The notes beneath the pieces are model-generated. The model searched no databases. It saw only the letters and a program-made list of their open reading frames with translations, and had not been told where the DNA came from. A program made the translations under genes and the position numbers. DNA of 64,000 bases, from positions 2,843,779 to 2,907,778 of the forward strand of contig NZ_AP014548.1 of assembly GCF_000831385.1 (NCBI RefSeq). Reading direction: 5' to 3'. This document shows positions 14,394 through 61,845 of the stretch, piece after piece. This DNA is from Nonlabens marinus S1-08 (GTDB lineage: Bacteria > Bacteroidota > Bacteroidia > Flavobacteriales > Flavobacteriaceae). The first letter of the stretch is position 1. Each line of letters starts with the position of its first letter.

Positions 14394-14407
14394 GCTTTCG
14401 CGAAAGC
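14394..14407. repeat. Dispersed palindrome, intergenic
   Basis: Exact core GCTTTCGCGAAAGC between rfbA and rfbB. Confidence 0.9.
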
Positions 14408-14448
14408 GAAAATACCAAAAGCATTTTACTCATTCAACATGCATGACG

Positions 14449-15462
14449 CTAACTTCCTAAATAGTCTCTATTATCCAAAAACCAATCTAGGGTCTTTTCT
14501 ATACCTTCTTCAAAATCGACGCTAGGTTTCCATCCTAGTTCTCGCTGAATTTTACTGGCATCAATGGCATATCTAAAATCGTGACCTGGACGATCATTTA
14601 CAAACTTTATTAATTTTCTGGATGTGCCAGAAGGCTTATGTGATTTTTTGTCCATCAAATCACAAAGTAGATGAATCAAATCTATATTCTTCCACTCGTT
14701 ATGGCCACCTATATTATAAGTTTCACCAACCCTGCCATTATGGAACGCGAGATCAATAGCCCGTGTGTGATCTGCAACGTATAGCCAGTCTCTAGTATAG
14801 TTTCCATCACCATAAACCGGAAGTGGTTTCCCTTCTAAAATATTCTTAATAAACAACGGAATCAATTTTTCTGGGAAATGGTACGGCCCGTAATTATTGG
14901 AACAATTGGAGATGATATATGGAATTTTATAGGTTTCTCCATAAGCTCTCACAAAATGATCACTGCTGGCCTTTGATGCACTATAAGGCGAATTAGGGTC
15001 GTAGCAAGTTTGCTCAGTAAACAATCCTCTTTCACCAAGACTGCCATAGACTTCATCAGTACTCACATGGTAAAATAAATGATCAGCACCAAGAGTCCAG
15101 TGTTTGCGGCAAACTTCTAATAATTCTACCGTTCCCATAACATTTGTTCTCACAAACTGCAAAGGATCAGCAATGGAGCGGTCTACATGCGATTCTGCAG
15201 CAAGGTGGATGATATGAGATATTGCATGCTTAGAAAACAGTTCTTCCAAAAGCTGAGAATCTGTAATATCTCCGTGAATGAATGTATAGTTTAGCTGTTG
15301 CTCGACATCACTCAGGTTTTCTAAATTGCCCGCATAAGTCAATGCATCTAGGTTGATGATCTTATAATCAGGGTACTTTTGAATAAATAAACGCACTACA
15401 TGACTTCCTATAAAGCCAGCACCGCCTGTAATTAGTACATGTTTGGTTATTTCTTGTTGCAT
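14449..15462 (-). CDS. rfbB: dTDP-glucose 4,6-dehydratase
   Basis: 337 residues: VLITGGAGFIGSHVVRLF NAD loop, HLAAESHVDRSI, YHVSTDEVYGSLGE and the catalytic YSASKASSDHFVRAY. It dehydrates dTDP-glucose to the 4-keto-6-deoxy form, upstream of RfbC. The promoter-side gap to ugd holds an interrupted version of the palindrome (15478-15536). Confidence 0.96.
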   Translation of the reverse strand: MQQEITKHVLITGGAGFIGSHVVRLFIQKYPDYKIINLDALTYAGNLENLSDVEQQLNYTFIHGDITDSQLLEELFSKHAISHIIHLAAESHVDRSIADPLQFVRTNVMGTVELLEVCRKHWTLGADHLFYHVSTDEVYGSLGERGLFTEQTCYDPNSPYSASKASSDHFVRAYGETYKIPYIISNCSNNYGPYHFPEKLIPLFIKNILEGKPLPVYGDGNYTRDWLYVADHTRAIDLAFHNGRVGETYNIGGHNEWKNIDLIHLLCDLMDKKSHKPSGTSRKLIKFVNDRPGHDFRYAIDASKIQRELGWKPSVDFEEGIEKTLDWFLDNRDYLGS

Positions 15463-15477
15463 TATCTATCTCAATAG

Positions 15478-15536
15478 TTCGCTTTCGTACCACAACAAGT
15501 GCGGCATTAACTTCTGTCCTGCGGACAGAAAGCGAA
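15478..15536. repeat. Interrupted copy of the dispersed palindrome with nested hairpin
   Basis: Left half TTCGCTTTCG (15478-15487) and right half GAAAGCGAA (15528-15536) flank a ~40-bp insert, which itself ends in the small hairpin TCTGTCC-TGC-GGACAGA sharing bases with the right half. Intergenic, between rfbB and ugd. Confidence 0.6.
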
Positions 15537-15537
15537 A

Positions 15538-16932: not shown

Positions 16933-16933
16933 A

Positions 16934-18211
16934 TTATAGTCGTTTGTCAGCCTTATCTCCTAAAAATCCTTTTATATCGTAGACTATGGCTTTTAATTCT
17001 TTTAATTTGTTAAAATCTATATTTGAAAATTGTTTGTGTCCAACAGCTAGCACAATGGAAGAATATAAAGTCGTGGGCAATTGATTAACTATTGATATCC
17101 CATGAGTTTTGTAAACTTGTTGTTTATCTGCTAAAGGATCCCAGACATCTACCTTGATTCCATATTCCTTAAGGCTATGTATCAAGTCTAATACTTTGGA
17201 GTTTCGAACGTCCGGACAATTTTCTTTGAAAGTTACCCCTAATACTAGAGCTTTAGAATATTTTATTTCAATTCCCTTTTGAAGCATGAGTTTAACTACT
17301 TCTCCAGCGACATAATTCCCCATTCCATCATTTACACGTCTACCAGCGAGTATAATTTCAGGATGATAACCTACCTCCTGAGCTTTTTGAGCTAAGTAAT
17401 AAGGATCAACACCTATACAATGTCCACCTACTAATCCGGGAGTAAATGGTAAAAAATTCCATTTTGTTCCTGCAGCTTTCAACACTTCATGAGTATCGAT
17501 ATCCAGTAAATTGAAAATTTTAGCAAGTTCATTCACAAAGGCGATATTAATATCTCTTTGAGAATTCTCTATGACCTTAGCAGCTTCTGCCACCTTGATA
17601 GAAGGCGCCATATAGGTTCCGGCAGTAATGACTCTTTTATATAATTTATCTATTTCTACTGCACTTTCTTTAGTACTTCCAGAAGTTACTTTAAGTATTT
17701 TATCTATTGTATGTAATTTATCTCCAGGATTGATACGCTCAGGGGAATAACCTACGTAGAAATCCTTATTGCATTCCAGTCCACTGATGGCTTCTAGGAT
17801 AGGTATGCAAAACTCTTGAGTTGCACCCGGGTAGACTGTAGATTCATATACCACTATATTGGAAGAAGTGAGAAATCGAGCTACAGTTTCACTAGCTGAA
17901 CGTAAAGCCTCCATGTCTGGTGCATTTTTTTCATCTACCGGAGTAGGGACCGTTATTATATACGTGGTACAATCTGCAAGCAGATTTTCATCTGATGTAC
18001 AAAAAAGACCTAAACCAGAATTGGTTTCTTTTTTCAAAACGGCGCCTAGTTGCTCTTCCGATACTTCTAAGGTAGCGTCCTGACCTTGTTTCAATGCTGA
18101 AACACGAGAATCATCAATATCATAGCCTACTACATCATATTTGGTCGAAAATAACCGTGCTAATGGCAGCCCCACATATCCTAAGCCTATGATTCCTATC
18201 TTAATTTTCAT
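16934..18211 (-). CDS. UDP-N-acetyl-hexosamine 6-dehydrogenase (TviB/WbpO-like)
   Basis: The chosen ATG at 18211 gives 425 residues starting [20 protein letters not shown]. An in-frame upstream start (18271) would add 20 residues read through a copy of the dispersed palindrome and overlap the upstream gene, and is unlikely. The NAD loop, [22 protein letters not shown] and the catalytic [16 protein letters not shown] are intact. The family oxidises UDP-GlcNAc or UDP-GalNAc to uronic acids. The WbpP/TviC-like epimerase encoded upstream supports a GalNAcA/GlcNAcA product. Confidence 0.85.
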
Positions 18212-18228
18212 TTTTTGATAATGAGTTC

Positions 18229-18242
18229 GCTTTCGCGAAAGC
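18229..18242. repeat. Dispersed palindrome, intergenic
   Basis: Exact core with TTCGC...GCGAA flanks, in the gap before the TviB-like gene. Confidence 0.9.
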
Positions 18243-18249
18243 GAAATTA

Positions 18250-19248
18250 TCAAAGATTTTCCCAATACCATTGAATTGAACGATCCAATCCTTGTAAAAT
18301 GTCGAATTTAGGGTCATAATTAAGTAAAGATCGTGCTTTTTCTATCGAGGCTAGAGAGTGTGGAACGTCCCCAGCTCGTGCCTTGCGATGGAGGATAGGG
18401 ACATCTGCAATACGTGCATCCTTGACAATTAATCGAGTTTTAATTGCTTCTGCTAATTCTAAAATGGTTGTGCGCTGTCCAAAGGCAACATTATATACTT
18501 GATTTAAGGATTGGGGGTTTTTAGCTTCCATTGCGCGTATATTGGCTTGTACAACGTTATCAACAAAAGTAAAGTCCCTAGAATAGGTACCATCGCCATT
18601 AATATAAACAGGCTCAAGATTCATGAATGCTTTGACAAAAGCGGGAATTACCGCTGCATAAGCTCCACCAGGGTCCTGGTAAGGTCCGAAAACATTAAAA
18701 TAACGCAGTCCTATAGTATCAATACCATAAGTTTTGTGGAAAACATCAGCGTACAATTCATTGACGTATTTTGTAATAGCATAGGGTGATAATGGTTTAC
18801 CAATAACTGACTCCACTTTAGGCAAAGATGGTGAATCCCCATATGTAGAAGAGCTTGCTGCATATATAAATCGATCTACATCATTGTCGGCACAGGACTT
18901 CAACAAGTTTAAAAAACCAGAAACATTCACTTCATTTGTAGTTACGGGATCTGCTACGGATCTAGGCACGCTTCCCAAAGCCGCTTGATGAAAAACTATA
19001 TGTTGATCTGCTACTACTTCCTTACAACTATTTAAATCTCGAATATCAGCATTCACAAATTTAAAATTTGAAATCCCTCTCAATTCAGAAAGATTAGATT
19101 CAAAACCAGTAGCCAAATTGTCCATACCAAGTACTTGGTAACCTTGAAGACAAAGTGCTTTGCAAAGGTTGCTGCCTATAAAGCCAGCAGCGCCGGTAAC
19201 CAATACATTTTTCAAAAAAAGAGACTTTTGGGATTCAAGTGAAGACAT
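18250..19248 (-). CDS. UDP-N-acetylglucosamine(-uronate) 4-epimerase (TviC/WbpP-like)
   Basis: 332 residues with NVLVTGAAGFIGSNLCKAL, YAASSSTYGDSPSLPKVE, and catalytic SPYAITKYVNELYA. The wording around FGPYQDPGGAYAAVIPAF is characteristic of the WbpP/TviC group, which interconverts UDP-GlcNAc/GalNAc or their uronic acids. It is the promoter-proximal gene of the long minus-strand sugar region and is divergent from the OmpA-family gene. Confidence 0.85.
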   Translation of the reverse strand: MSSLESQKSLFLKNVLVTGAAGFIGSNLCKALCLQGYQVLGMDNLATGFESNLSELRGISNFKFVNADIRDLNSCKEVVADQHIVFHQAALGSVPRSVADPVTTNEVNVSGFLNLLKSCADNDVDRFIYAASSSTYGDSPSLPKVESVIGKPLSPYAITKYVNELYADVFHKTYGIDTIGLRYFNVFGPYQDPGGAYAAVIPAFVKAFMNLEPVYINGDGTYSRDFTFVDNVVQANIRAMEAKNPQSLNQVYNVAFGQRTTILELAEAIKTRLIVKDARIADVPILHRKARAGDVPHSLASIEKARSLLNYDPKFDILQGLDRSIQWYWENL

Positions 19249-19374: not shown

Positions 19375-19400
19375 TCAACTGAAAGCAAAAAAACTTTACA

Positions 19401-21258: not shown

Positions 21259-23076
21259 CTAATTCTTGGATTCGATATATTCATCGACCAATCCCTCCAA
21301 CAAACTCAACGGTAAAGAACCATTGGTCAATACTACATCATGAAACACTCTTATATCAAATTTTTCACCCAATTCGGTTTTTGCTTTGTTGCGCAATTCT
21401 AGAATTTTATTCATCCCTATTTTATACGCAGTGGCTTGTGAAGGCATCACAATATGTCGTTCCACCATTTTAACCGCGTCGCTTTCTGCATTAGGAGTGT
21501 TTTCTGTGTAATACTTGATACCTTCTTCTCTTGTCCATTTTCTCGAATGAATTCCTGTATCTACCACAAGACGGCAGGCACGCCACAATTCCATTGCGAG
21601 CCTTCCAAAATCGCTATAAGGATCTTTGTAAAACCCAATTTCCTTAGGAATCAATTCAGAATACAAACCCCACCCCTCGACGTAAGCGGTGTGAAATAAA
21701 TGCTTACGGAATTCTGGCAAACTGTCCAACTCTTGAGCGATTGCTATTTGCATATGGTGTCCAGGAATCCCTTCATGATATGCTAGAGCATCCATTTGAT
21801 AGGTAGGCATCGCTTTCATATCATAAAGATTCGCATAATAAGTTCCTGGCCTACTGCCATCACTTGCAGGTTGTTGATAAAATGCTTTTCCAGCACTCGC
21901 CTCTCTGAAGGGCTCAACTGCTTTCACAACTATGTCGGCTTCTGGTAATGTGTTGAACAATTCGGGAAGCTTTGCCTTCATTGTTTGGATATGCGCTGTA
22001 GCTTCTTTTAAGTACTTAGCTTTTCCGGCTTCTGTATTCTCGTAGTAAAACTGATCATCGTCTCTCATGAACGCAAAGAAATCTTGAAGAGACCCTTCAA
22101 ATTTCACTTGTTTCATGATTCCCTTCATTTCCTCATGAATACGCGCCACTTCGCTAAGTCCAAATTCATGAATCGCATCAGCACTCAGGTCTGTTGTGGT
22201 TGTACGCTTTAAAGCATACTCATAGAATTCTTTACCTTTTGGAAATTTCCAAACCCCATCTTCTATCGTGGCTCTTTGTTGCTGATCTTCTAAGGCTAGA
22301 ATTAAATTCTCGTAGGCAGGTTTTACATGCTGCACAAGAGCCATTTTAGCCGACTTCATCAATTCAGCTTTTTTACTTTTACTCAATTTGATCTTTGCAA
22401 TTTTGTCTTCAAAATCAGCTAGCAGTGTGCTTTTTTGATTCGAATTTTCAAAGGGTTCGCCCATCAGTAAATTGCGAGAATCTTTCAATACCTTTTCGTA
22501 TACAAATCTTGGTAATAAAATACCATTGCTCTCCCTTAATTGCAAGCCTTCAACAAGGTCGCTAAAAAGAGGTTCTATCCCTTCTAATCTAGAGATATAA
22601 GCCTCTGCATCTTCTTCGTTATCAATAAGATGCATATTGATCAAAAAGGCTGGTACTTCTGCGTGCATCCCGTGCATTTGGTTAACGGGATAGGTATACA
22701 ATCGGTACTCATAATCTTCAATAGCCTGCTCCTGCAGATTCTTATACAGTTTATAGCTCAGCAAATCTTGCCCCTCTAACGCCGCCGACTTGATCGTATC
22801 TTTCAGGTACGCCAATCTAGATTCTGCCAGTTTTCTATCCTCTAACTCCCGCTCTGAGGATATATCCGTCCATTTTCCATAATCCGTTTTGATTCCCATA
22901 CTGGTTTGCATTTCGGGATCGCGGGATAAATCTTGCTGAAATTGAACTTCCAACCAATCATTGAATTGTTGGGCTATTTGTTGTTTTTCCGCTTTCGCGA
23001 AAGCGGAACTATCATTCTTCTCCTTGCAAGAACCTAGAATCATTAGCAGGCTGATAAATATTGTTTTTTTCATCAT
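21259..23076 (-). CDS. DUF885-family lipoprotein, putative metallopeptidase
   Basis: 605 residues. The N-terminus MMKKTIFISLLMILGSCKEK is a lipoprotein signal with lipobox LGSC, so it is anchored in the envelope. The hallmark DUF885 motif YHEGIPGHHMQIA lies near residue 435, and a second conserved block VEGWGLYSE follows. The HEGIPGHH motif resembles a zinc-peptidase site; the substrate is unknown. A copy of the dispersed palindrome encodes AFAKA just after the lipobox (22991-23004), in the flexible tether. It lies 5 bp after dsbD and is probably in one operon with tilS and dsbD. Confidence 0.85.
   Translation of the reverse strand: MMKKTIFISLLMILGSCKEKNDSSAFAKAEKQQIAQQFNDWLEVQFQQDLSRDPEMQTSMGIKTDYGKWTDISSERELEDRKLAESRLAYLKDTIKSAALEGQDLLSYKLYKNLQEQAIEDYEYRLYTYPVNQMHGMHAEVPAFLINMHLIDNEEDAEAYISRLEGIEPLFSDLVEGLQLRESNGILLPRFVYEKVLKDSRNLLMGEPFENSNQKSTLLADFEDKIAKIKLSKSKKAELMKSAKMALVQHVKPAYENLILALEDQQQRATIEDGVWKFPKGKEFYEYALKRTTTTDLSADAIHEFGLSEVARIHEEMKGIMKQVKFEGSLQDFFAFMRDDDQFYYENTEAGKAKYLKEATAHIQTMKAKLPELFNTLPEADIVVKAVEPFREASAGKAFYQQPASDGSRPGTYYANLYDMKAMPTYQMDALAYHEGIPGHHMQIAIAQELDSLPEFRKHLFHTAYVEGWGLYSELIPKEIGFYKDPYSDFGRLAMELWRACRLVVDTGIHSRKWTREEGIKYYTENTPNAESDAVKMVERHIVMPSQATAYKIGMNKILELRNKAKTELGEKFDIRVFHDVVLTNGSLPLSLLEGLVDEYIESKN
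22991..23004. repeat. Dispersed palindrome inside the DUF885 gene
   Basis: Exact core; encodes AFAKA in the post-lipobox tether. Confidence 0.9.
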
Positions 23077-25124: not shown

Positions 25125-26452
25125 TTTTTCCATGTAATTTTCAATATTTCGTTTGTTTTGTCGCTTACTGTAGCGTGCCTGCTCGATCGAACGCCTACCA
25201 CCCAAAGCACATCTTGTGGTGTGCATAACATCAAGACTCTTTTTTTCTCAGTTCTAGACAGTTTTTTGTTCGTTAGAATATCACTTACGAGTTGGGAACC
25301 CTTCATGCCAAATGGTTCTAAACGGTCACCTTTATGCCAGGCTCGTAAAGTTAACGGATAATGCAATCGTTCCTTATCCAACCACAGCACATTTTTAGCC
25401 GATTGAGTTTTTATAAAGCCAACAGGATCATCCATTCTGATGGTTTCTAAAGTCAAGCTAGAATTCTGTAGGTCTATGGATGTAGTTTCTGGTAACAAAT
25501 ACCATTTTTTGGTAAGCGGTTCTGTTATTTTTTCTAAGCGCAATAAGTCCCTGTCTTTAAGCAAAATAAAAGTAGCGTTAGACAAATATTTCCCAGTTTC
25601 CGCACCCATAAGTGCCACTACTTCGTCTGTTTGATTAAACCCGTATTCTTCTAGAAGATAGAATAGATATGCCTTGAAATTAGGATACTTCCTAACCTCA
25701 TCCAGATGTAAATCAATTCCCGTGGTGCTGATGGTAGTTACGCTTTCGCGAAAGCGGGCTACCGCATCTTTCAAGATCAAATCTATGTCTTGTAAATAGT
25801 TTAACGTCTGTGAAAAATGTCCTCTCAATTGAGGTAAGGCGTCATGCAAGACGGGCAATGCTTGGTTTCGCAGTTTATTTCTTTGATAATCGTTTCTTTG
25901 ATTGCTGGAATCTTCCCTCCATGTGATCTGATTTTGCTGGGCAAATTCGAGAATGTCATTTCTTGAAAATTTTAAAAGCGGTCTGAGTAATCCAGGACTT
26001 TGCTCTGGTATTCCTGTCAAACCGGCGAGTCCAGTCCCACGGTTTAAATTGATCAAAAAAGTCTCTAATTGATCATCCAGGTGGTGCGCTGTCAACACTG
26101 CAGCTAAATCGTTTGCTTTTAGTAATTGGTCAAACCACTCATAGCGCAATTTCCTAGCCGCCATTTGGGTAGAGATGCCCAACTTCTCCACCACTTTCTT
26201 TGTCTTAAAATGCTGCACATGAAGATCTACCGATAATTGTTGCGCCAGATTCCTTACAAAAAGTTCATCGGCATCACTTTCTTCCCCTCGTAAATGAAAA
26301 TTGACATGAGCCATTTGAAAGCTGATCTCGCTGGACTTAAGTAGATGAGCCAATACCACACTGTCCAGTCCACCGCTGATCGCTAGCAAAACATCCTGCT
26401 TCAAAAGTTGAGGAAATTGATCCTGTAGGTGTAGTTGAAAGGCTTGTTGCAT
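25121..26452 (-). CDS. tilS: tRNA(Ile)-lysidine synthase
   Basis: 443 residues with the PP-loop motif LLAISGGLDSVVLAHLL (SGGLDS at 26-31), AHHLDDQLETFLINL and a C-terminal TilS domain (RAWHKGDRLEPFGMKGSQLVSD). It modifies the CAU anticodon of tRNA-Ile2 to lysidine. The gene contains a palindrome copy at 25742-25755 encoding RFRES in the linker after the catalytic domain. Only 10 bp separate it from pabB upstream, so they share a transcript. Confidence 0.95.
   Translation of the reverse strand: MQQAFQLHLQDQFPQLLKQDVLLAISGGLDSVVLAHLLKSSEISFQMAHVNFHLRGEESDADELFVRNLAQQLSVDLHVQHFKTKKVVEKLGISTQMAARKLRYEWFDQLLKANDLAAVLTAHHLDDQLETFLINLNRGTGLAGLTGIPEQSPGLLRPLLKFSRNDILEFAQQNQITWREDSSNQRNDYQRNKLRNQALPVLHDALPQLRGHFSQTLNYLQDIDLILKDAVARFRESVTTISTTGIDLHLDEVRKYPNFKAYLFYLLEEYGFNQTDEVVALMGAETGKYLSNATFILLKDRDLLRLEKITEPLTKKWYLLPETTSIDLQNSSLTLETIRMDDPVGFIKTQSAKNVLWLDKERLHYPLTLRAWHKGDRLEPFGMKGSQLVSDILTNKKLSRTEKKRVLMLCTPQDVLWVVGVRSSRHATVSDKTNEILKITWKK
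25742..25755. repeat. Dispersed palindrome inside tilS
   Basis: Exact core; encodes RFRES. Confidence 0.9.
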
Positions 26453-27877: not shown

Positions 27878-30127
27878 TTAAAATCTATACTGCAGGATTC
27901 CTCTAATAAAAAAAGGAGTTCCTGGAGTGAAATGAATTTCTTCTACTGACGCTGTTTCATTTTGCAATCTAGATTCAGTGGCAAACTGGGTTTCATTCCA
28001 TTCTACATCAAATAGGTTTTGAACAGCAAATCCTGCTCGCAAATGATCTGTGACATCATAATTGACATTGAGGTCTGAAACAAAATATCCTTCTGCAACA
28101 ATGCTGTTGTCTTCATTTGCTGGGCGGTCTCCAATGTATCGGTATCTGATTCCTGCATTGAAACGGTTCCAGTCTTTCAAGCTCAAACCTCCTGTAGATG
28201 TAAACTTAGGTGCTAATGGTATTAAGTCTTGGCCATCGGGCTCGTTAATTGCTCTAGCGTGTGCGTAGTTTACATCTGTATCTAAAAACAAGTGTTTGGA
28301 AAGCTGGTAGCGTAAGCTCACATCAAATCCAAAACGCTCTGTTTCACCGCTAGGTTCTACAATTCCAGCATCTCCAACATACACAAATTCTTGCTCCAGA
28401 AATAAGTACCAAAGTGCTGTGTTTACAATCATGCGGTTGGTAGGCTTCCATACAAAACCTAAATCTGAGCCATATGATTTGGGTAAGATATCGTCTGCTG
28501 TTTGCTGTAAGACCACCCGAGTGTCATTACTGTGAAAGCCCACTCCATTTTTGAAATACAACTGGAAGTTTTCTGAGACTCTGTAATTAAAATTCAACTT
28601 AGGTAACAGTGCCGTTTCTGATTGAGCTTGCGTGTCGTACAAGGTACTAAGGGCGTCCTTATAGGTAAACTTGAAGTGCTCTAACCTCAATCCTGCATCA
28701 ATCAAGAAGTCGTTTACATACCAGGTGGCTCCTACAAACCCAGACGTATTCGTTTCATTAATATCCCCTAGCTGAATGTTTTCAAGTGTGGTTCTCCTGT
28801 TCAAAGTTCTGGATAGCTCACTGCCCTCAGTACGATCATTACGCAATCTGAGTCCAGCAGTCAGGTCGAGCTTGTAATCTGACAAGCTAGTCCTATACGT
28901 GTACGCCGCGTCAAAACCAGCTAAATCACGAGATTCTTGTTGCTTGATTTGATCGCCATTTACCGGATCTTCGAGGAAAAAGGTAAAGTTAGAGAATAGC
29001 AGGAAATCATACTTAGAATAATACAAATGTGTACTGAACTGCTCGTTATCGCTCAAAGCCATATCGTAATTGATGTTCACGCTGGTTCTTGAGGTCTCGC
29101 CACCTTCCGTATCATCAATTGCTCCAAATCTCCCGATCAAGCCTCTATCCACGGCACGCTGCGGGATTTGGCCGCTAGCATCCCACTCACTATCAAAATG
29201 AGAAATACTCACACCCAATTCATTCCCAGCATCTGATATATAATTCAGCTTCCCGAATAAGTTTACCCTATCAAAATTTTGCGGACTGTCAAACGGACCA
29301 TCAAATGTCAAGTACTCTGTTGCTATGTAAGCGCTGGTGTTTGCGTTGTCCAGTACTTGCACTAGCCCTACATATCGCTGGTAATTAAAGTCCCCAATTT
29401 CAGCATTTATGACATTTTCACGAATAACATCTCTTGTGCGAAAATCTACATGACCTGCAGTGGCAAAATTACCAATGGATTTATCATAGCTTCCTTTCCC
29501 ATAAGAGATATTCTCAATAGTTTCTGGAATGACAAAATGTAGATCTGCATATCCTTGACCATGCGCATGCGATACCATATTGACAGGCATTCCATCCACA
29601 CTTATCGCCACATCAGTCCCGTGATCGATGTCAAAACCTCTTAAAAATAATTGTTCGGCTTTACCGCCACCCGCATGTTGACCTATAAATAGTCCAGGCA
29701 CTGTGCGCAGCACTTCTTGAGTAGAGGTTACTGGGTTCACTTCCAGATCGGCTTGAGTGATGGTATTGAGGACGTCTAACTCGTTAGTGATGGTAACAGC
29801 TTGCAAGTCAATGGATGCTTCCAATAATACAATTTGAAGCACTTCAGACTCTTCTGTTATCGCTTTCGCGAAAGCGGCATAACCCAACTTTGAGAACCTC
29901 AATTCATCACCTTCCTCTACCTGATCAATGGTAAAAAAGCCTTTACTATTCGTATGGGTGTGGGTTCCTGATTTCAGGTGCATCACATAAACATCCTTTA
30001 ATGGCTTGTTATTTTCATCCACCACATAACCGGTAATGGTATGGGCAAATAAAACCTGAGTACTTAAAATGAATAGCGAGAAGAATAAAAGCTGCGAACA
30101 AGCTTTTTTATAAAAGAGAATTGTCAT
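27878..30127 (-). CDS. TonB-dependent outer membrane receptor
   Basis: 749 residues. A signal peptide (ending VLFAH) is followed by a carboxypeptidase-regulatory-like beta domain (ITGYVVDENNKPLKDVYVMH, ~30-110), a plug domain (TSTQEVLRTVPGLFIGQH and IDHGTDVAISVDGMPVNM), and a long beta-barrel ending RGILQYRF with terminal Phe. It is a solitary receptor without a SusD partner, so import of a siderophore, metal or vitamin complex is likelier than a polysaccharide, but the ligand cannot be read. A palindrome copy (29862-29875) encodes AFAKA in the N-terminal beta domain. Confidence 0.9.
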   Translation of the reverse strand: MTILFYKKACSQLLFFSLFILSTQVLFAHTITGYVVDENNKPLKDVYVMHLKSGTHTHTNSKGFFTIDQVEEGDELRFSKLGYAAFAKAITEESEVLQIVLLEASIDLQAVTITNELDVLNTITQADLEVNPVTSTQEVLRTVPGLFIGQHAGGGKAEQLFLRGFDIDHGTDVAISVDGMPVNMVSHAHGQGYADLHFVIPETIENISYGKGSYDKSIGNFATAGHVDFRTRDVIRENVINAEIGDFNYQRYVGLVQVLDNANTSAYIATEYLTFDGPFDSPQNFDRVNLFGKLNYISDAGNELGVSISHFDSEWDASGQIPQRAVDRGLIGRFGAIDDTEGGETSRTSVNINYDMALSDNEQFSTHLYYSKYDFLLFSNFTFFLEDPVNGDQIKQQESRDLAGFDAAYTYRTSLSDYKLDLTAGLRLRNDRTEGSELSRTLNRRTTLENIQLGDINETNTSGFVGATWYVNDFLIDAGLRLEHFKFTYKDALSTLYDTQAQSETALLPKLNFNYRVSENFQLYFKNGVGFHSNDTRVVLQQTADDILPKSYGSDLGFVWKPTNRMIVNTALWYLFLEQEFVYVGDAGIVEPSGETERFGFDVSLRYQLSKHLFLDTDVNYAHARAINEPDGQDLIPLAPKFTSTGGLSLKDWNRFNAGIRYRYIGDRPANEDNSIVAEGYFVSDLNVNYDVTDHLRAGFAVQNLFDVEWNETQFATESRLQNETASVEEIHFTPGTPFFIRGILQYRF
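29862..29875. repeat. Dispersed palindrome inside the TonB receptor gene
   Basis: Exact core; encodes AFAKA. Confidence 0.9.
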
Positions 30128-34418: not shown

Positions 34419-35138
34419 CTATGGATTTGTAGACCACAAGGCAGCGCTCTTCATCATGGCACGGCGTGGCAACTTTAATCCAGCAACTATAAGTTGTGCA
34501 AAATCCTCTGGTTGTAGAACACTATCCTCTGAGTCTTTGTCGGCTATTCCTAATTCTACCGTCATGTCTGTAACAATAGTACTGGGAGTAAGCGTGCATA
34601 CACGAATGTTGTCTTTACGCACTTCTTTCATCAGGGATTCTGACATTCCAATAACCGCAAATTTTGACGCGGAGTAAGCTGATGTATTGGCATTACCAGA
34701 CAGTCCTGCGGTGGAACTAACATTGATGATATCGCCTTCGTTTTTTTTAATAAGATGAGGCAGCACCTCTTTTGTCATGTAATATATCCCCATAACGTTC
34801 GTCTGTATGATTTGCGACCACTGGGCTACTTCCATATCTTGAAAGGAACCAAATGCTGCGATTCCTGCATTGTTGACTAAAATATCTACTGACCCAAGCT
34901 TACTGATAATATCACTTACACTGCTTTGCACCTCTTCATAATTACTCAAATCAAATGCTGCATAGTAGGCTTTAACACCTAGCTGCTCCAGTTGCTTGAC
35001 AGTTTCTTGTAGTGCAGCTTCATCTCTTCCTGTTACGGCTACATCGATCCCTTCTTTCGCGAAAGCGATAGCCGTTGCTTTACCTAATCCTCTACTACCA
35101 CCTGTAATGATGGCTTTTTTATTTTTAAGATGACTCAT
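34419..35138 (-). CDS. Short-chain dehydrogenase/reductase
   Basis: 239-residue classical SDR: GGSRGLG cofactor loop, NNAGIAAFG, catalytic Ser (VSSTAGLSG) and YSASKFA. Resembles 3-oxoacyl-ACP reductase-like or sorbitol/sepiapterin-type enzymes of unknown substrate. A one-mismatch palindrome (35053-35066) encodes AFAKEG in the helix after the cofactor loop. It is convergent with the sigma factor pair; 44 bp separate it from the lipoprotein gene upstream, so they may be co-transcribed. Confidence 0.85.
   Translation of the reverse strand: MSHLKNKKAIITGGSRGLGKATAIAFAKEGIDVAVTGRDEAALQETVKQLEQLGVKAYYAAFDLSNYEEVQSSVSDIISKLGSVDILVNNAGIAAFGSFQDMEVAQWSQIIQTNVMGIYYMTKEVLPHLIKKNEGDIINVSSTAGLSGNANTSAYSASKFAVIGMSESLMKEVRKDNIRVCTLTPSTIVTDMTVELGIADKDSEDSVLQPEDFAQLIVAGLKLPRRAMMKSAALWSTNP
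35053..35066. repeat. Dispersed palindrome (one mismatch) inside the SDR gene
   Basis: TCTTTCGCGAAAGC; encodes AFAKE. Confidence 0.75.
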
Positions 35139-36438: not shown

Positions 36439-36516
36439 CTAAGGAATTACTAAAAATTCTTGTAATCGCTTTCGCGAAAGCCAACTCCATCGTAATTTTC
36501 TGAAAATTTTAATCAT
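36439..36516 (-). pseudogene. Broken 5' end of a seventh DUF6090-like paralogue
   Basis: Reading the minus strand from ATG at 36516 gives 25 codons, MIKIFRKLRWSWLSRKRLQE and then FLVIP and a stop. The first ~17 codons match the paralogue at 39532-40287 (MIKFFRKLRWSSLSRKRIPK), including the embedded palindrome and its flank at nucleotide level, with few differences over ~47 bp. After the palindrome the similarity ends: no YAIGEI membrane segment follows. It is the downstream end of the paralogue array, so a deletion or a partial duplication is likely. Confidence 0.7.
36468..36481. repeat. Dispersed palindrome in the DUF6090-like remnant
   Basis: Exact core; encodes LSRK in the broken copy. 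Confidence 0.9.
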
Positions 36517-37310: not shown

Positions 37311-37321
37311 TGATAATAATT

Positions 37322-40287: not shown

Positions 40288-40312
40288 TGGTTTTATTGTA
40301 AAAAAAATCTGT

Positions 40313-43646: not shown

Positions 43647-43718
43647 TTGTCAAGGACTAAACTTTATGGCACGATCCTAGTCACAGATTGCATACTGATT
43701 TTGTATTTTGGCAGGCCT

Positions 43719-47019: not shown

Positions 47020-47130
47020 TCGTTCTGTAAAAAATTCAATGTGTTGCTAAAATACGTTATGACACTCAAGTGCGCCTCAAAATTTCAATCCTATTTTGAA
47101 TCTCAATGTTGAAAAAATGCTGGTATTTAG

Positions 47131-47150
47131 TTCGCTTTCGCGAAAGCGAA
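47131..47150. repeat. Dispersed palindrome, full 20-bp intergenic copy
   Basis: TTCGCTTTCGCGAAAGCGAA, perfectly self-complementary, in the divergent spacer before the UvrD-type gene. Confidence 0.92.
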
Positions 47151-47195
47151 CAACCCTCAAACCGTATCTTTAAAGACTAGAAAATGAAGTAGATT

Positions 47196-52132: not shown

Positions 52133-52984
52133 TTGCACATCGCTATCGTCATACCAGCTTTTAATGAAGAAGCACTGATCGCCCAGACGCTAGAAAGCCT
52201 CTGCGATCAAACTCATCCCGCTGCTCAAATAGTAGTCGTAGACGATAATTCTACAGACCATACCTACGACATTGCTGCATCATTTATCACTCGATTACCG
52301 CTACAAGTCATTCGTAATTCTTCAAGCGCAGAAAATATTCCAGGCGCCAAGGTGATTCAAGCTTTTAAAAAAGGCCTCTCCTTGTTGGATCTTTCTAAAT
52401 ATGATGTGATCTGTAAGTTTGATGCTGATCTCATTTTTCCAACTGATTATCTGGAGCAAATTGTAGTTCGCTTTCGCGAAAGCGATACCATCGGCATGGT
52501 GGCAGGTCATTGTACTATTGAGAAAAACGGGAGTTGGGTACTAGAAAACCAAAATAACCCAGATCACATAAGAGGTGCTTTAAAAGCTTATCGCATCAAT
52601 TGCTTTGATGCAATTGGAGGTCTAAAAACCAGCATAGGATGGGACACTATGGATGAAATGCTGGCGCGGTACAACGGTTGGAAGGTGGTAACTATAGAGG
52701 GTTTGCATGTCAAGCATCTCAAACCTACTGGTGTTTCTTACAAACCGAAATCCCTGCGATTACAAGGGGAAGCATTTTATAAAATGCGATACGGATTACC
52801 GCTAACCATGATCACCGCAATTAAGATGGCGTTTAAAAACAATAATTGGAGATTGATTGGTGACTACTTACAGGGATATTTCAACGCACAAAAAAGCGAC
52901 CTTGATCCTTTAATGACTAAGGATCAAGGCCGCTTTTTGAGATCTTACCGCTGGAAAGGTATTAAATCTAAAATAGGTTTCTAG
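52133..52984 (+). CDS. Family 2 glycosyltransferase
   Basis: 283 residues: IAIVIPAFNEEALIAQTLES, VVVDDNSTDHTYDIA and KFDADLIFP (DxD-like) are the GT-A donor-binding motifs; GWDTMDEMLARYNGWK and the C-terminal YRWKGIKSK follow. The start is TTG at 52133. A palindrome copy at 52470-52483 encodes RFRES. The last ~30 codons overlap a large hairpin (52891-52938) that serves as terminator for the convergent gene. Sugar specificity unknown. Confidence 0.88.
   Translation: MHIAIVIPAFNEEALIAQTLESLCDQTHPAAQIVVVDDNSTDHTYDIAASFITRLPLQVIRNSSSAENIPGAKVIQAFKKGLSLLDLSKYDVICKFDADLIFPTDYLEQIVVRFRESDTIGMVAGHCTIEKNGSWVLENQNNPDHIRGALKAYRINCFDAIGGLKTSIGWDTMDEMLARYNGWKVVTIEGLHVKHLKPTGVSYKPKSLRLQGEAFYKMRYGLPLTMITAIKMAFKNNNWRLIGDYLQGYFNAQKSDLDPLMTKDQGRFLRSYRWKGIKSKIGF
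52470..52483. repeat. Dispersed palindrome inside the GT2 gene
   Basis: Exact core; encodes RFRES. Confidence 0.9.
52891..52938 (-). terminator. Terminator of the barrel-protein gene, inside the GT2 coding sequence
   Basis: Two 20-base arms (52891-52910 and 52919-52938) pair with a single mismatch around an 8-base loop. On the minus strand the stem is followed by a run of six T, 43 bp beyond the stop codon of the 52981-53472 gene. On the plus strand it ends in five T but lies 46 bp before the GT2 stop. Confidence 0.8.
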
Positions 52985-53515: not shown

Positions 53516-55207
53516 TTATTTTAAAACTTTGGTAATAGGGTTCCCAGTAGCACTATTGGGAAAACTGATTTTTAGTAAAGTAGAGATGGTTGGTGCAATA
53601 TCTGTTATAGAGGTACGCTCTGCCGATTCTCCCTTTTTAATCCCATTCCCGTAGAAAAGTAAGGGTACATGTGTATCGTAGCTTTGAGCGCTGCCGTGGG
53701 TTGAACCTGTTCTAGAATAAACGATCACACCTGGATCTAAAATGAAAATCACATCACCGCTGCGCTGGTGGTGAAAACCATTTTGAATCATAGCAGCCAT
53801 TCCAGTAGTGAATGATCCTGATACCATAGCATCTCTAGTAAATGCTTTATCAACCCCAGGATAGTTGCGCATCTCTGCCGCTAAAAAATCTTGAAGTTCA
53901 CCAGAATTTAATTTATTAGAGCGAATCAACTCTTGATCAAAGAAGACCTGGTCGTTGCTCACATTTTTGATAAGACCATTGATCTCAAATTGCGAGACCA
54001 ATAAACTATCCATCTTTTTTACAAAATTGCGCTCATCAAAATAACCAGCACTAAATTTTTGCTCTTGCAAATATGCAGGAACATTAACGGCTCCATGATC
54101 TGCTGTTAGAAATACCGTATAATTTCCCTCTCCTACTTTATCATCCAGCGCCTTTAAAACTCGAGCTATATCTTGATCTAATCTCAAATAGGTATCCTCA
54201 ATCTCTACAGAATTGACGCCATACTGATGGCCTACATAATCGGTACTTGAAAAGCTAATGGCAAGAAAGTCTGGAATTGAATCCGTACCCATGTTTTCTT
54301 TGTCTATTGCTTCAATAGCAAAATCAGCTACTATAGAATTACCGTAAGGCGTCGCTTTAATGAGGTTATAACCTCCATTTTTAGAAGCTAATGACTTTAA
54401 ATCGTATGGAAAGGTTGCAGTTTCTTTTCCCCTAGGACTTCCTTCATACGGATTCAAATCTGGCCCGCTTGCGGTATACGACTCTAATGGATATAAGGTC
54501 TGCCATGTGGTTAAGTATTTCTCTGCTGGTTGAGATGCATTAAATGATGCTACCCAATCTGGCAATTGATTCCTGTAAAAAGAACTGGTGATAAAAGTTC
54601 CTTCGTCGCCTCCTCTAAACCAGTAAGCCGCATCTGCTGCGTGTCCCGCCGGTAAAATAGCCCCACGGTCTTTTATGGAAATCCCTATGACTTTAGAGCG
54701 ACCTTGTGTAAAGAGCTTGAGTTCATCAGTGACCGTTGAACTCAACATGCGTGAGGGCGACATCTTTCCCTCATCGCTAGTAGTGCCTACAGGACTGGCC
54801 GATTCATCATCTGCATTGTAAATTGTACGATCAATAAACTTGTCGTACCAATTATTGCCTATGATACCATGATCAGCAGGAACGGTCCCTGTATAAATAG
54901 AGGCATGACCAGGAGCTGTATAGGTAGGAACATAATTATAATGATTGTTAGTGACGTTAAAGCCTTCATTCATTAATCGTTTAAATCCACCGTTACCATA
55001 CCTACTGTAGAAGCGTGTCAAGTAATCATACCTCATTTGATCTACTACGATACCAACTACTAATCTCGGCCCTTCTGGTGGGGTCTCTATAGCTTTGTAA
55101 TTAGTGCTTTCCAGTTCCGTTGGTTCTTGGTCAGTTAGCTTTCGCGAAAGCGAACAAGAAGTCAACATTAATGCACAGATTGCAACGAGGTAATAAGAAA
55201 TTTTCAT
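53516..55207 (-). CDS. pafA: PafA-type alkaline phosphatase, lipoprotein
   Basis: 563 residues. Lipobox LTSC in the signal peptide. The body has the alkaline phosphatase superfamily layout: VGIVVDQMRYDYL (first metal Asp), YTAPGHASIYTG (Thr nucleophile), GIIGNNWYD (Asn), SIKDRGAILPAGHAAD (the Lys and Arg that define PafA), and LTADHGAVNVP. It hydrolyses phosphomonoesters outside the cell membrane. A palindrome copy (55138-55151) encodes SLSRKLTD immediately after the lipidated Cys, in the tether. Divergent from the MlaE-like gene. Confidence 0.92.
   Translation of the reverse strand: MKISYYLVAICALMLTSCSLSRKLTDQEPTELESTNYKAIETPPEGPRLVVGIVVDQMRYDYLTRFYSRYGNGGFKRLMNEGFNVTNNHYNYVPTYTAPGHASIYTGTVPADHGIIGNNWYDKFIDRTIYNADDESASPVGTTSDEGKMSPSRMLSSTVTDELKLFTQGRSKVIGISIKDRGAILPAGHAADAAYWFRGGDEGTFITSSFYRNQLPDWVASFNASQPAEKYLTTWQTLYPLESYTASGPDLNPYEGSPRGKETATFPYDLKSLASKNGGYNLIKATPYGNSIVADFAIEAIDKENMGTDSIPDFLAISFSSTDYVGHQYGVNSVEIEDTYLRLDQDIARVLKALDDKVGEGNYTVFLTADHGAVNVPAYLQEQKFSAGYFDERNFVKKMDSLLVSQFEINGLIKNVSNDQVFFDQELIRSNKLNSGELQDFLAAEMRNYPGVDKAFTRDAMVSGSFTTGMAAMIQNGFHHQRSGDVIFILDPGVIVYSRTGSTHGSAQSYDTHVPLLFYGNGIKKGESAERTSITDIAPTISTLLKISFPNSATGNPITKVLK
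55138..55151. repeat. Dispersed palindrome inside pafA
   Basis: Exact core; encodes LSRK next to the lipobox. Confidence 0.9.
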
Positions 55208-56801: not shown

Positions 56802-56818
56802 ATTCAAGACGCAGTAGC

Positions 56819-58228: not shown

Positions 58229-59304
58229 TAACCAATTGCGTCGCCATACGTATCCATAGCGTCTTTTCTTATTTCTTTAATTTCTTGATCTGCCTCGATG
58301 GGTATAATCATCAAAACGTCCTCTTCGTCTACAATAATATAATCCTTGAGACCTTGAACAATCACTTTTTTACCTTTAGCGGTACGGATCATGTTTCTAC
58401 TTGCATCCCTTGAGGTCACTTGGGCATTTACAATGGCATTTTGATCTTTAGTTTTATCCAACCTTGAGTACAAACTCCCCCAAGTTCCTACATCGTTCCA
58501 GCCAAAGTCTACCGGCAACACATACACGTCTGGACTGCGTTCCATAACAGCGTAATCGATGGATATGTCTTTGGCTTTGGCATAATTCTCTTCTAAAAAT
58601 TGTTGTTCTCCAGCTTCATTATAAAACTGCATTCCATTTTGAAAGAGTTGGTATAATTCTGTTTCCGCTTTCGCGAAAGCGGAAATTACCGCGTCTACAG
58701 ACCATATAAAAGTACCAGAATTCCATAGAAAATTACCTTCTGCAACATATTTCTTAGCAGTAGCTAAATCTGGTTTCTCCCTAAACTGTTTCACTTTTTT
58801 CACGGAACCCTCTGACTCCTGAAATTCGATATAACCAAATCCCGTGTTAGGAGAGTCTGGCTCTACCCCCATCGTCATAAGTGCTTCTGGATGATCCTCG
58901 CAAAATTGAAAGGCCGTGGTCAAGTCTTTTTGGAATTGATTGTCGTTTTCAATAAAACTATCGCTGGGAGCTACTATCATCCTAGCTTCCGGATTTTTCT
59001 TTTGAACTTTCAGGGCTGCAAGTAAAATACAAGGGGCTGTGTTGCGCATAGCTGGTTCTGCTACAATATTCTCAGCGAGAATTTCTGGTAGTTGCTGTTG
59101 AACCAAATCAATGTAATCTGTGTTAGTTAAAATCAAGATATTTTCAGTGGGCACCTGTTTCTTCAATCGGTCAAATGTGGTTTGGAGCAAGGATTGGCCT
59201 ACTCCCAGCATATCATGAAATTGTTTAGGAAAAGATTGACGGCTCACTGGCCAAAATCTTGATCCCACACCACCAGCCATAATTACTGCATACTTATCAC
59301 TCAT
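58228..59304 (-). CDS. manC: Mannose-1-phosphate guanylyltransferase
   Basis: The ATG at 59304 overlaps the SprT-like stop as ATGA and is chosen; ATG 59316 would add four residues. Motifs: YAVIMAGGVGSRFWPVSR, FPKQFHDMLG, VAPSDSFIEN, FGYIEF and WNSGTFIWSVDAV. About 358 residues, without the C-terminal isomerase domain of long ManC proteins; the separate cupin at 12357-12701 could supply that activity. It makes GDP-mannose for the gmd/fcl pathway. A palindrome copy (58667-58680) encodes SAFAKAE right after the catalytic WNSGTF block. Confidence 0.92.
   Translation of the reverse strand: MSDKYAVIMAGGVGSRFWPVSRQSFPKQFHDMLGVGQSLLQTTFDRLKKQVPTENILILTNTDYIDLVQQQLPEILAENIVAEPAMRNTAPCILLAALKVQKKNPEARMIVAPSDSFIENDNQFQKDLTTAFQFCEDHPEALMTMGVEPDSPNTGFGYIEFQESEGSVKKVKQFREKPDLATAKKYVAEGNFLWNSGTFIWSVDAVISAFAKAETELYQLFQNGMQFYNEAGEQQFLEENYAKAKDISIDYAVMERSPDVYVLPVDFGWNDVGTWGSLYSRLDKTKDQNAIVNAQVTSRDASRNMIRTAKGKKVIVQGLKDYIIVDEEDVLMIIPIEADQEIKEIRKDAMDTYGDAIG
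58667..58680. repeat. Dispersed palindrome inside manC
   Basis: Exact core with TTTCC...GGAAA flanks; encodes AFAKA. Confidence 0.9.
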
Positions 59305-59900
59305 AGACTTTTCCATAATTGAACGTGCACATTAGGCTGAAAAACATACATCCTCCCTGTATCAACCTCCATACATTCATACCGTTTACGTAATTTTTTT
59401 CCTCTTTGAAACCTTCGCCCATCTTTGGTCAAGAAGTAGTCCCCAGTATTCATCTCAAATATATAGATTTTATCTGTTGGGGGGTCATAGGATTTTAACG
59501 CAACACTCATAGCTGCGTCTGTATCACTACTAGCGTAAGGATTTCTGAAATGTCTGGCCAATACTGGCAGTAAATCCATAGGAAACACTTCCGGTCGCAA
59601 AAAAGGCAACATTAGTTTTTGAAAGGTTTGCTTCCATTCTATCCCGTGCGGCTTGATACGATACCCGTATTTTTTGAATGCGACCAAATGGGCAATCTCA
59701 TGCACAAGGGTAATCAAAAACCGATAAGGGTTGAGATTAGAATTGATCGTGATCTTATGAGAGCCATCTGGTAGTGGACGGTAATCCCCATGCCTAGTTC
59801 TGCGCTCGTTGACAATTTTCAAATGCACATGATGTTCCTCCAACAGTGCAGTCAGTGGACTGACAGCAACAACTGGAAGATACTTTTCTAGAACATTCAT
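59301..59900 (-). CDS. SprT-like zinc metalloprotease-domain protein
   Basis: 199 residues with the zinc motif LVHEIAHLVAFKKYG and a third ligand region KPHGIEWKQTF, plus a C-terminal zinc-ribbon-less tail (FQRGKKLRKRYECMEVD). SprT-like proteins are often annotated as putative DNA-repair or transcription-associated peptidases; no evidence for either here. Overlaps manC by four bases, 44 bp after yidC. Confidence 0.85.
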   Translation of the reverse strand: MNVLEKYLPVVAVSPLTALLEEHHVHLKIVNERRTRHGDYRPLPDGSHKITINSNLNPYRFLITLVHEIAHLVAFKKYGYRIKPHGIEWKQTFQKLMLPFLRPEVFPMDLLPVLARHFRNPYASSDTDAAMSVALKSYDPPTDKIYIFEMNTGDYFLTKDGRRFQRGKKLRKRYECMEVDTGRMYVFQPNVHVQLWKSL

Positions 59901-59944
59901 AGTTTTTACTGTAAATAAGCGTCAACTGAAAAGCTGATTCTAGC

Positions 59945-61759
59945 CTATTTCCCTTTCTTCTGAGCTTCTTGCTGTGCTTGAGCTTGCTCCATGATCTTTT
60001 GCATCTTAGTAGCAAAGCCACCTTTTTTCTTAGGCTTAGCTTTCGCCTTTTCAATTTTAGCTAACACGCGATCCTTGTCGATAATAAAGTTTTTGATTAC
60101 TAACATGATACCAATCGTAATCAAGTTAGACACAAAGTAATACAATGACAATCCACTCGCATAGTTATTAAAGAAAACTAGCATGAATAATGGTGATAAA
60201 TACATGATAAACTTCATGTTAGGCATACCAGGTTGTGGCGTCTGCATGCTTTGACCTGTAGTCATTTGCATATAAAAGAATATAGATATAGAAGCCAGAA
60301 TCGGGAATAAACTTACGTGATCACCGTAAAATGGTATATCAAAACCTTCTGGAAACTTGTATATCGTGTCATAACTGGATAAGTCATTTGCCCATAAGAA
60401 ACTCTTCTGCCTCAAATCAAATGCGGTAGGGAAAAACTTAAACAGCGCAAAGAACACAGGCATTTGAAGCAATGCTGGCAAGCAACCCGACAAAGGACTC
60501 GCGCCCGCCTCGCTCTGCACCTTCATAGTTTCCTGCTGCTTTTTCATCGCATTGTCCTTGTACTTCTCCGCAATGCGGTTGATTTCTGGACGTAGGATTT
60601 TCATTTTTGCCTGGGTCAAATAACTCTTGTACAGGACGGGAGATAGCACTAACCGCACACATATAGTCAACAGAATGATCGCAATACCAAAAGCAATACC
60701 TAGATCAACCGTCAAGAATGAAAACAACGGGCGAATGGCATATTGATTGATCCAACCAAAAATTCCCCAACCTAAATCAACTACTTCATCTAAATTGCGT
60801 TCATACCCATTTAAAATATCAAAGTCAGTCGGACCGAAGTACCAATTCATATTGTAAGCTAACTCACCACCGCTGTATTCCATTTGAAGTTCTGACTCAA
60901 ATTCTTTTGTAAATGTGTCTTGCTCTTCATTTATTTCCTCAATATTCTTTGATTTCAATACACCACTAGCAAACGGTGTATCTGTCAATAATATAGAGGA
61001 GAAGAAGTGCTGCTTGTAAGCTACATAAGTAATGTTCTCTTCTTCCTCTTCTGCACTCTCTCCTTGACCGGTATAATCGTCGCTACCGCCATCGTATTCG
61101 AATTTAATCTCCGTATAACGATTCTCGTTAGTCATGCTCTTTGACCTGCGGTAGGCTTTCATTTGCCAATCGAGAACAGCATTTTCTGAGGAATTTACAA
61201 CGCTTGAAACCCCTTGAGTTCGAATAGTGAAATCCAGCATATAATCACCTGGTTCCATCTCATATCTATACTCAATAGAACCGGATCCTACAGGTGCTTT
61301 CATTGAAAGTACCTTATTAGCACCGTTAGTAGATTGAGTAGGTGTAAAAACTAGATCCTTGGTATGAATTTTACGACCGTCCTTAGCTGTTAAGATCAGA
61401 TCAAAGGAATGATCATTTTCCTTAGCTAGATATACTGGTAAGGAGTCATATGTGTGAAATTTCTTAAGTAATGCCTCAGTAACATAAGCTCCTTTAGTAT
61501 TAAATTTCAAATCCAACAAATCATTGGAGAGTTGCACTTCTTGACCCGCAGCAGGTTGTGGTATAAACGTAGAATCTGAAACTTGAGTCACTGAATCAAT
61601 AGCTGCAGTCTTCACCGGCTCTTCTTCAACCTGCGCTACTTCTGCTTCCTGATCTACAGGCTGCTCTGGCTCATTATTGTAAACAAAAGTGTACATGAGA
61701 ATGGCAAAAATTAATGTCATTCCTAGTATGGTCTTCCAGTCTGTTTTCTTCTCTTCCAT
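59945..61759 (-). CDS. yidC: Membrane protein insertase YidC
   Basis: 604 residues: N-terminal membrane anchor (WKTILGMTLIFAILMYTFVY), a large periplasmic P1 domain (~60-335), and the C-terminal 60-kDa inner-membrane domain with five segments (IRPLFSFLTVDLGIAFGIAI onward, then GCLPALLQMPVFFALFKFFP). The tail is Lys-rich, as in flavobacterial YidC that binds ribosomes. It inserts proteins into the inner membrane. The promoter-side gap to pyrG contains a palindrome copy. Confidence 0.95.
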   Translation of the reverse strand: MEEKKTDWKTILGMTLIFAILMYTFVYNNEPEQPVDQEAEVAQVEEEPVKTAAIDSVTQVSDSTFIPQPAAGQEVQLSNDLLDLKFNTKGAYVTEALLKKFHTYDSLPVYLAKENDHSFDLILTAKDGRKIHTKDLVFTPTQSTNGANKVLSMKAPVGSGSIEYRYEMEPGDYMLDFTIRTQGVSSVVNSSENAVLDWQMKAYRRSKSMTNENRYTEIKFEYDGGSDDYTGQGESAEEEEENITYVAYKQHFFSSILLTDTPFASGVLKSKNIEEINEEQDTFTKEFESELQMEYSGGELAYNMNWYFGPTDFDILNGYERNLDEVVDLGWGIFGWINQYAIRPLFSFLTVDLGIAFGIAIILLTICVRLVLSPVLYKSYLTQAKMKILRPEINRIAEKYKDNAMKKQQETMKVQSEAGASPLSGCLPALLQMPVFFALFKFFPTAFDLRQKSFLWANDLSSYDTIYKFPEGFDIPFYGDHVSLFPILASISIFFYMQMTTGQSMQTPQPGMPNMKFIMYLSPLFMLVFFNNYASGLSLYYFVSNLITIGIMLVIKNFIIDKDRVLAKIEKAKAKPKKKGGFATKMQKIMEQAQAQQEAQKKGK

Positions 61760-61831
61760 AAAAATCCCCAGAATCGGGTGAATTTGCTCGTTAAAGCTTT
61801 TACTTGTATGCGATATGATTGTTAGCAGCTC

Positions 61832-61845
61832 GCTTTCGCGAAAGC
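61832..61845. repeat. Dispersed palindrome, intergenic
   Basis: Exact core between yidC and pyrG. Confidence 0.9.

Follow-up and report, generated by a model that had tools for sequence, protein, structure and literature searches.

One of the closest described counterparts of the repeat analysed here is HIP1 of cyanobacteria (GCGATCGC, 8 bp), a palindrome that occurs genome-wide, is reported to be maintained by selection and has an unsettled function, according to the available sections of one source (PMC4390886); an excerpt of a second gives its density in Synechocystis 6803 as 1 per 1131 bp (PMC6604393). The repeat itself, a perfect 14-bp palindrome, GCTTTCGCGAAAGC (hereafter the core), belongs to a member of the Bacteroidota, Nonlabens marinus S1-08, and is seen in a stretch of 64,000 nt (contig NZ_AP014548.1, forward-strand positions 2,843,779 to 2,907,778, assembly GCF_000831385.1; hereafter the window). 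Other iterated sites of bacterial chromosomes are Chi, which in Escherichia coli is found about once per 4–5 kb, and the Noc/ParB sites and matS, palindromes for chromosome-organising proteins that are regional and number tens of copies or fewer. Among lambdoid phages, Chi is carried by those without recombinases of their own and lacking from those that have them, as described in the accessible part of Bobay 2013 (PMC3784561). The Nonlabens core very probably marks a DNA-level site that is under selection along the whole chromosome.

The window was scanned for the core with up to two mismatches, using 100 dinucleotide shuffles as the control. Sixteen matches were found, all at 14394–61845, comprising 14 exact copies and two with one mismatch (32393 and 35053), just as a first-pass annotation of this DNA had counted them; the shuffled sequences gave a mean of 0.17 matches and a maximum of 2. 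Its placement of four copies between genes likewise stands (14394, 36468, 47134 and 61832, from a mechanical list of open reading frames, ORFs), and 12 copies were found inside ORFs of at least 120 aa, where the annotation had eleven in coding regions and one in a gene remnant. The genome, a single contig of 2,915,920 bp (2.92 Mb), holds 728 exact copies, or about one per 4 kb along the chromosome, versus none for the reversed pattern and approximately 0.005 expected under base independence and the composition of the window; the genome count that the annotation had itself proposed as a check thus agrees with its claim of an excess far above chance. Within 464 kb of Nonlabens marinus DNA, 114 copies are exact, 7 have one mismatch and 3 have two; the corresponding numbers in two Markov sequences are 0, 0 and 0–1. 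The likeness to HIP1 lies in this genome-wide excess of a palindrome and in an origin by substitution. The differences are the sequence and length of the core (14 bp), the host phylum, the presence of 26-nt flanking arms poor in C, a density of 1 per 4 kb, perhaps carriage by phages, and the absence of a cognate methyltransferase of three families common to nine motif-rich genomes. Because two defining HIP1 features fail, the repeat is not filed as HIP1. As an independent and longer HIP1-like case, found in phages and in a family whose genera are partly motif-rich and partly motif-poor, it opens the question of function to comparison.

All 23 genomes of the genus Nonlabens carry between 288 and 857 copies, the lowest number being that of a genome that is 78% complete. 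Of the 299 family genomes, 238 are free of the core, 56 hold 1–19 copies and five exceed 400, namely three Nonlabens and two from outside the genus, designated G206 (857 copies) and G190 (408). Among 148 genomes drawn from the order, in part from this family, only that of Nonlabens marinus exceeds 4 copies. Counting the core in relatives, as the annotation had suggested, gave an excess throughout the genus and 0–19 copies in the remaining family genomes, G206 and G190 excepted. Of 80 loci with a YidC neighbour, three Nonlabens-like ones contain 3, 5 and 6 copies and the other 77 no exact copy; in 77 loci from other genera of Flavobacteria, variant palindromes (8-, 10- and 12-mers with at least four copies and more than 25 times expectation) were not detected, with the lone exception of an 8-mer in a Gillisia locus (L067). 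In a PyrG tree G206 and G190 cluster with a Leeuwenhoekiella whose 21.9-kb locus lacks the motif; as a single-gene tree made by a quick method, it leaves their kinship with Nonlabens uncertain. Some motif-poor genomes have small clusters of copies, which look like DNA transferred from motif-rich donors. A query of plasmid records with the doubled motif returned weak matches only (best E 0.04). Neither the 14-mer nor a description of it was found in the text returned by full-text searches of open-licence papers, and the portion of the RepRanger paper at hand makes no mention of Nonlabens.

The positions of the copies are conserved between species. When Nonlabens marinus DNA is aligned pairwise with loci of other Nonlabens (identity 72.3%), the motif is intact in 59 of the 80 windows that hold it, against 9,205 intact windows (3.8%) among all 242,144 of 14 columns; since some loci overlap or share a genome, the 80 do not count as independent. 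A stricter count, with four later-added loci excluded and sites at least 40 bases inside the alignment, covers 69 comparisons of 15 Nonlabens marinus sites: 49 are intact, 4 gap-shifted, 12 have one or two mismatches, one has 8 mismatches and 3 show length differences. Conservation varies from copy to copy. In loci read as the his operon, the copy at 989 is intact in 6/6 loci including that of G206, those at 3496 and 9058 in 5/7 and 4/5, and those at 3766, 6099 and 6754 in 2/7 (one of the two being G190), 2/4 and 1/3. The gap between yidC and pyrG holds a copy in G206 as well, and none in G190. Between these two genomes, two of the five G190 copies that align are preserved in G206, and both of two conversely; the stretches of Nonlabens marinus alignable with either happened to cover no copy. 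Four features go beyond the annotation: the conserved positions, a spacing too even for chance, the C-poor arms and the copies in phages.

The site extends beyond the core. The core is usually embedded as CGCTTTCGCGAAAGCG, with genus-specific bases further out: the base next outward is C in 91% of Nonlabens marinus arms, and position -2, mostly T in Nonlabens marinus and A in G206, forms a dialect. Cores are looser in G206 (50 exact, 16 one-mismatch and 14 two-mismatch copies) and G190 (36, 5 and 13). Between 4 and 26 nt from the core, the strand that enters it in the 5'-to-3' direction is depleted of C and enriched in T and G, with a C/G ratio of 0.11–0.65; from 27 nt on the ratio returns to 0.91–1.05 (161 Nonlabens marinus and G206 sites). 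The site therefore measures about 66 bp, with a 14-bp core and two C-avoiding arms of about 26 nt. Coding and intergenic copies have C-poor arms alike, so that the bias is not a codon effect. When C was counted over 46 arm positions per copy, the median was 4 in the 114-copy sample, with 88 of the 114 holding at most 6, as do 11 of the 14 exact copies of the window. Pairing between the arms is not specific to the site, since folding was as good or better in 29 of 40 flank swaps; an extended cruciform was rejected on these grounds, and an effect of single-strand composition fits better.

Copies with similar arms are also carried by phages. The matches listed from a scan of viral contigs with the bare 14-mer are mostly single copies, and more than half of their sites lie in contigs of at least 48% GC; adding C-poor flanks to the pattern gave 22 stretches. 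Among the latter, one phage group with an HK97-type capsid (PF05065), an integrase and a SieB-like gene has copies 4.3–5.1 kb apart at recurring positions, some with one mismatch, and other gaps on phage contigs range from 0.8 to 6.6 kb. The bare 14-mer was also found in a Mu-like phage with a transposase, a MuB-like protein and a repressor. Some of the motif-carrying phages are temperate. Twenty-five non-redundant copies on hand-chosen phage contigs have C-poor arms as in the hosts, with C frequencies of 0.06, 0.12, 0.08 and 0.17 at 4–9, 10–14, 15–20 and 21–26 nt against a background of 0.196, the 4–9 bin being biased by the search pattern. The Nonlabens phage P12024L, annotated with ERF- and YqaJ-type recombination genes, has no copy in 30 kb, where about 7.5 would be expected at host density. 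No recombinase of the ERF or YqaJ kind was seen in 40 ORFs scanned on the partial copy-bearing contigs, many of these ORFs being structural. Phage records queried with the doubled motif gave weak matches only (best E 0.2). One motif-bearing phage contig encodes a DNA methyltransferase-like protein (L341:7410-8936).

Our tentative preference is for a Chi-like site of recombination and self-marking that works in two directions, a possibility that we hold to be well short of probable; it was chosen because, of the readings weighed, it gives the best account of the strand-specific arms and agrees with the contrast between phages. A helicase-nuclease such as AddAB would enter at a DNA break, from either direction, read the core on the strand destined to be the 3' tail, and then stop degrading. 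The tail so produced would end in the core and carry upstream of it a T/G-rich, C-poor stretch that may be suited to RecA loading. DNA with a site every few kb would in this way be marked as self and repaired, and DNA without sites degraded, the palindrome allowing each copy to act in both directions. By geometry, the arm-biased strand is the one left as the 3' tail after a break has been processed towards the core, and RecA favours GT-rich DNA. Copy number and spacing also speak for the proposal, as does an AddB-type nuclease in all 18 genomes tested. The resemblance to Chi consists of a genome-wide distribution at about one site per 4–5 kb and perhaps of absence from one recombinase-bearing phage and presence in others. 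The Nonlabens site differs in being long, palindromic and strongly conserved in position, and its Chi-like activity is a prediction by analogy; it is called Chi-like rather than Chi because it does not have the short, non-palindromic form of Chi. In its full form the proposal is of a new class of self-marking element in the genomes of Bacteroidota: a palindrome flanked by C-poor arms, some 66 bp in all, that acts like Chi in both directions, recurs every 3–5 kb along the chromosome, has been adopted by temperate phages and is read by a helicase-nuclease or another protein that chooses between repair and destruction of DNA; as a whole this is possible but doubtful.

Several observations weigh against the Chi-like proposal. 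Known Chi sites are 5–8 nt and non-palindromic, and 14 bp is long by comparison. The conservation of positions and the 114:7 ratio of exact to one-mismatch copies are stronger than would be expected for Chi, and probabilistic recognition would give no reason for copies to avoid close neighbours. AddB-type genes are present equally in the motif-poor genera tested and leave unexplained why the motif is abundant in only three genera. The phage contrast rests on one copy-free phage, and the copy-bearing phages are seen in part only. The arms, moreover, are much weaker in motif-rich G190, and 15 of the 114 Nonlabens marinus copies hold at least 8 arm C. Finally, the core forms a hairpin in 63 of 114 predicted folds with its own flanks versus 36 of 114 with random genomic flanks, so that a hairpin role is possible from the fold counts; the excess may be due to the palindrome extending by a few bases.

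The copies are spaced more evenly than chance would allow. The 13 gaps between exact copies of the window measure 2.7–5.3 kb, with a coefficient of variation (CV) of 0.21, and none of 10,000 random placements was as even. For the first 100 copies of Nonlabens marinus the CV is 0.62 versus 0.99 for random placement (0/10,000 as low), and 5 gaps are shorter than 1.5 kb where 32.7 are expected. Evenness is weaker in G206 (CV 0.73; 114 of 10,000 random placements as low) and G190 (0.76; 536 of 10,000). Nothing on spacing statistics was found in the part at hand of a paper on uptake in Haemophilus (PMC7811141). Twenty 20-kb stretches of the chromosome contain 3–9 copies each (mean 5.0, variance 2.0); along the chromosome no trend is apparent by inspection, without a formal test. 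Such regularity might be produced by a dedicated dimeric protein that attaches to every palindrome and bridges or anchors the chromosome at intervals of about 4 kb. The palindromic form, the scarcity of short gaps, the presence of copies in every stretch sampled, the strong conservation of positions and the occurrence in temperate phages, which reside in the chromosome, all speak for a chromosome-organising site of this kind, and a like role has been suggested for HIP1 from its distribution, in the excerpt available (PMC6604393). The strand-specific lack of C over 26 nt on each side is, however, not predicted by it, and no candidate protein was found among ParB/Noc-like paralogues: one ParB_N match is present in each of 17 genomes, motif-rich and motif-poor, and two in Nonlabens marinus, so that no additional paralogue is common to the motif-rich genomes among the 18, and this type of reader was rejected. 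In this respect, as in its hundreds of genome-wide copies, the site differs from those of Noc and ParB. We regard a chromosome-organising role as rather unlikely, if worth keeping in mind. The second ParB_N match of Nonlabens marinus lies at G000:C1:1269093-1269371 in a frame of 616 codons.

Although intergenic DNA makes up about 7.5% of the sequence, 36 of 113 copies are intergenic and 77 lie in ORFs (mechanical ORF calling). Enrichment between genes, together with conserved positions and the genus-specific base at -2, would suit a DNA-uptake sequence like those of Pasteurellaceae and Neisseriaceae, in which a competence receptor prefers motif-bearing DNA, whose recombination then spreads and maintains the motif. 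The uptake sequences of Neisseriaceae form dialects between genera, as the Nonlabens site does. Many near-perfect and few singly mismatched copies are a further likeness, an unexpectedly low share of the latter being reported for uptake sequences in the part of the source at hand (PMC1939737). The Nonlabens site nevertheless differs from these sequences in being palindromic and in being found in phages, where contigs with several copies 4–5 kb apart would draw no obvious benefit from uptake. Known uptake sequences are non-palindromic, and on balance an uptake function is unlikely. Should the site be Chi-like, it would be a bidirectional Chi; a nucleoid site would amount to a regular chromosome anchor, and an uptake sequence to a palindromic one.

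How copies come about was approached through relatives without the motif, which were at hand for 6 of 74 proteins encoded at coding sites and gave 8 alignments, some of only 40% identity. In none of the 8 (6 genes) does a gap fall inside the motif, and one has a gap directly beside it. At the hisB-like site at 3766 most relatives also have the peptide AFAKA, encoded by other codons, and a copy can thus arise by synonymous substitutions. Judged from these comparisons, copies arise by substitution rather than insertion. The annotation's reading of a highly iterated motif resembling HIP1 rather than a mobile element is upheld, and its alternative of a small non-autonomous repeat that had spread finds no support in the same alignments or in the exchanged codons. 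A mobile repeat of the MITE or REP kind, spreading by insertion, would account for the high copy number and for copies in phages and in a metal-efflux island; it is at odds with the gap-free motif, with 77 of 113 copies lying in ORFs and not outside genes, with the few decayed copies and the over-even spacing, and with the within-genus comparisons, where the site differs in length in 3 of 69 and in two of these the locus lacking the motif is the longer one. We consider such a repeat extremely improbable.

A methyltransferase acting together with mismatch repair, as in Elhai's model of HIP1, could in principle leave a palindrome of substitution origin as a by-product, and HIP1 is a precedent. 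None of three methylase families is present in all nine motif-rich genomes tested: the C5 family (PF00145) occurs in five, being absent from G304, G307, G312 and G190, the N6/N4 family (PF01555) in six, with one fragmentary match in a stop-containing frame, and the D12 family (PF02086) in two. G307 has no match to any of the three. As none is common to these genomes or tracks the motif, all three were rejected as the reader. The 14-bp core with its 26-nt arms is also larger than a methylase site, and CGCG shows no enrichment elsewhere than in the motif (484 versus 475 in one simulated sequence). A methylase by-product is accordingly very unlikely, and the annotation's idea of methylation at the CGCG centre finds no counterpart in an enzyme of these families common to the motif-rich genomes. 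For HIP1 itself, some genomes are listed as lacking one enzyme, a methyltransferase, in the sections available (PMC4390886). An operator of the reader's own gene was rejected as well, since the close pairs at 98357/98629 (272 bp) and L111 3496/3766 lie at apparently ordinary metabolic genes.

Counted with both 26-nt arms, the first exact site of the window (14368..14433, core 14394-14407) lies between ORFs. The next four are within ORFs: site 2 (18203..18268, core 18229-18242) in ORF 16934-18271, site 3 (22965..23030, core 22991-23004) in the DUF885 ORF 21259-23076, site 4 (25716..25781, core 25742-25755) in ORF 25121-26452, and site 5 (29836..29901, core 29862-29875) in the TonB-receptor ORF 27878-30127. 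Site 6 (32953..33018, core 32979-32992) falls in ORF 31744-33057, site 7 (36442..36507, core 36468-36481) between ORFs, and site 8 (40213..40278, core 40239-40252) near the 5' end of the minus-strand ORF 39532-40287. Site 9 (43979..44044, core 44005-44018) is in the peptidase M1-type ORF 43647-45815, and site 10 (47108..47173, core 47134-47147) is between ORFs, upstream of a UvrD-type helicase. Site 11 (52444..52509, core 52470-52483) lies within ORF 52133-52984 and is intact in 6 of 11 aligned loci; site 12 (55112..55177, core 55138-55151), near the 5' end of ORF 53516-55207, is intact in 8 of 19, gap-shifted in 4 and has one or two mismatches in 7. Site 13 (58641..58706, core 58667-58680), in ORF 58228-59316, is intact in 10 of 11 loci. 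Site 14 (61806..61871, core 61832-61845) is intact in all 14 and lies between yidC (59945-61759) and the gene at 61856-63508, which we take, by recognition, to be pyrG.

Clear C-poor arms are lacking at sites 5, 11 and 12 (8, 10 and 8 arm C) and at the two one-mismatch copies, GCTTTCGCGGAAGC at 32393..32406 (9 arm C; 586 bp from the next copy) and TCTTTCGCGAAAGC at 35053..35066 (10 arm C), each of which is possibly inactive. Sites 11 and 12 are the less conserved of the four window sites checked across the genus, so that weaker arms go with lower conservation there, in a small and after-the-fact agreement. The copies at 36468 and 40239 have a common right-hand flank. Both are located at six successive ORFs of much the same length (36552-41071), which a local duplication may have produced; a single ORF of the six was scanned and has no Pfam match at 1e-10.

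Window positions 1-14393 contain no core copy with up to two mismatches. This region has 35–38% GC and carries sugar-nucleotide and polysaccharide genes (9 ORFs scanned), including those for NeuB, a UDP-GlcNAc 2-epimerase, an aminotransferase and a GDP-mannose dehydratase; the absence of copies and the low GC are as expected of a region acquired from elsewhere. A 10-kb copy-free gap elsewhere in the genome contains an apparent polysaccharide-use locus, as read from its ORFs. A second repeat, GAAGCCGTCCTGCGACGGCTTGAC, is present at L111:4476, 5396 and 6327 between his-like genes, the only place where it occurs in the Nonlabens marinus sample, and short matches to query positions near it recur across Nonlabens genomes. 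Among the motif-poor genomes, G078 has all 4 of its copies in an island (L013) that appears to encode heavy-metal efflux; two copies separated by exactly 933 bp recur in five of these genomes (G078, G087, G101, G160 and G215).

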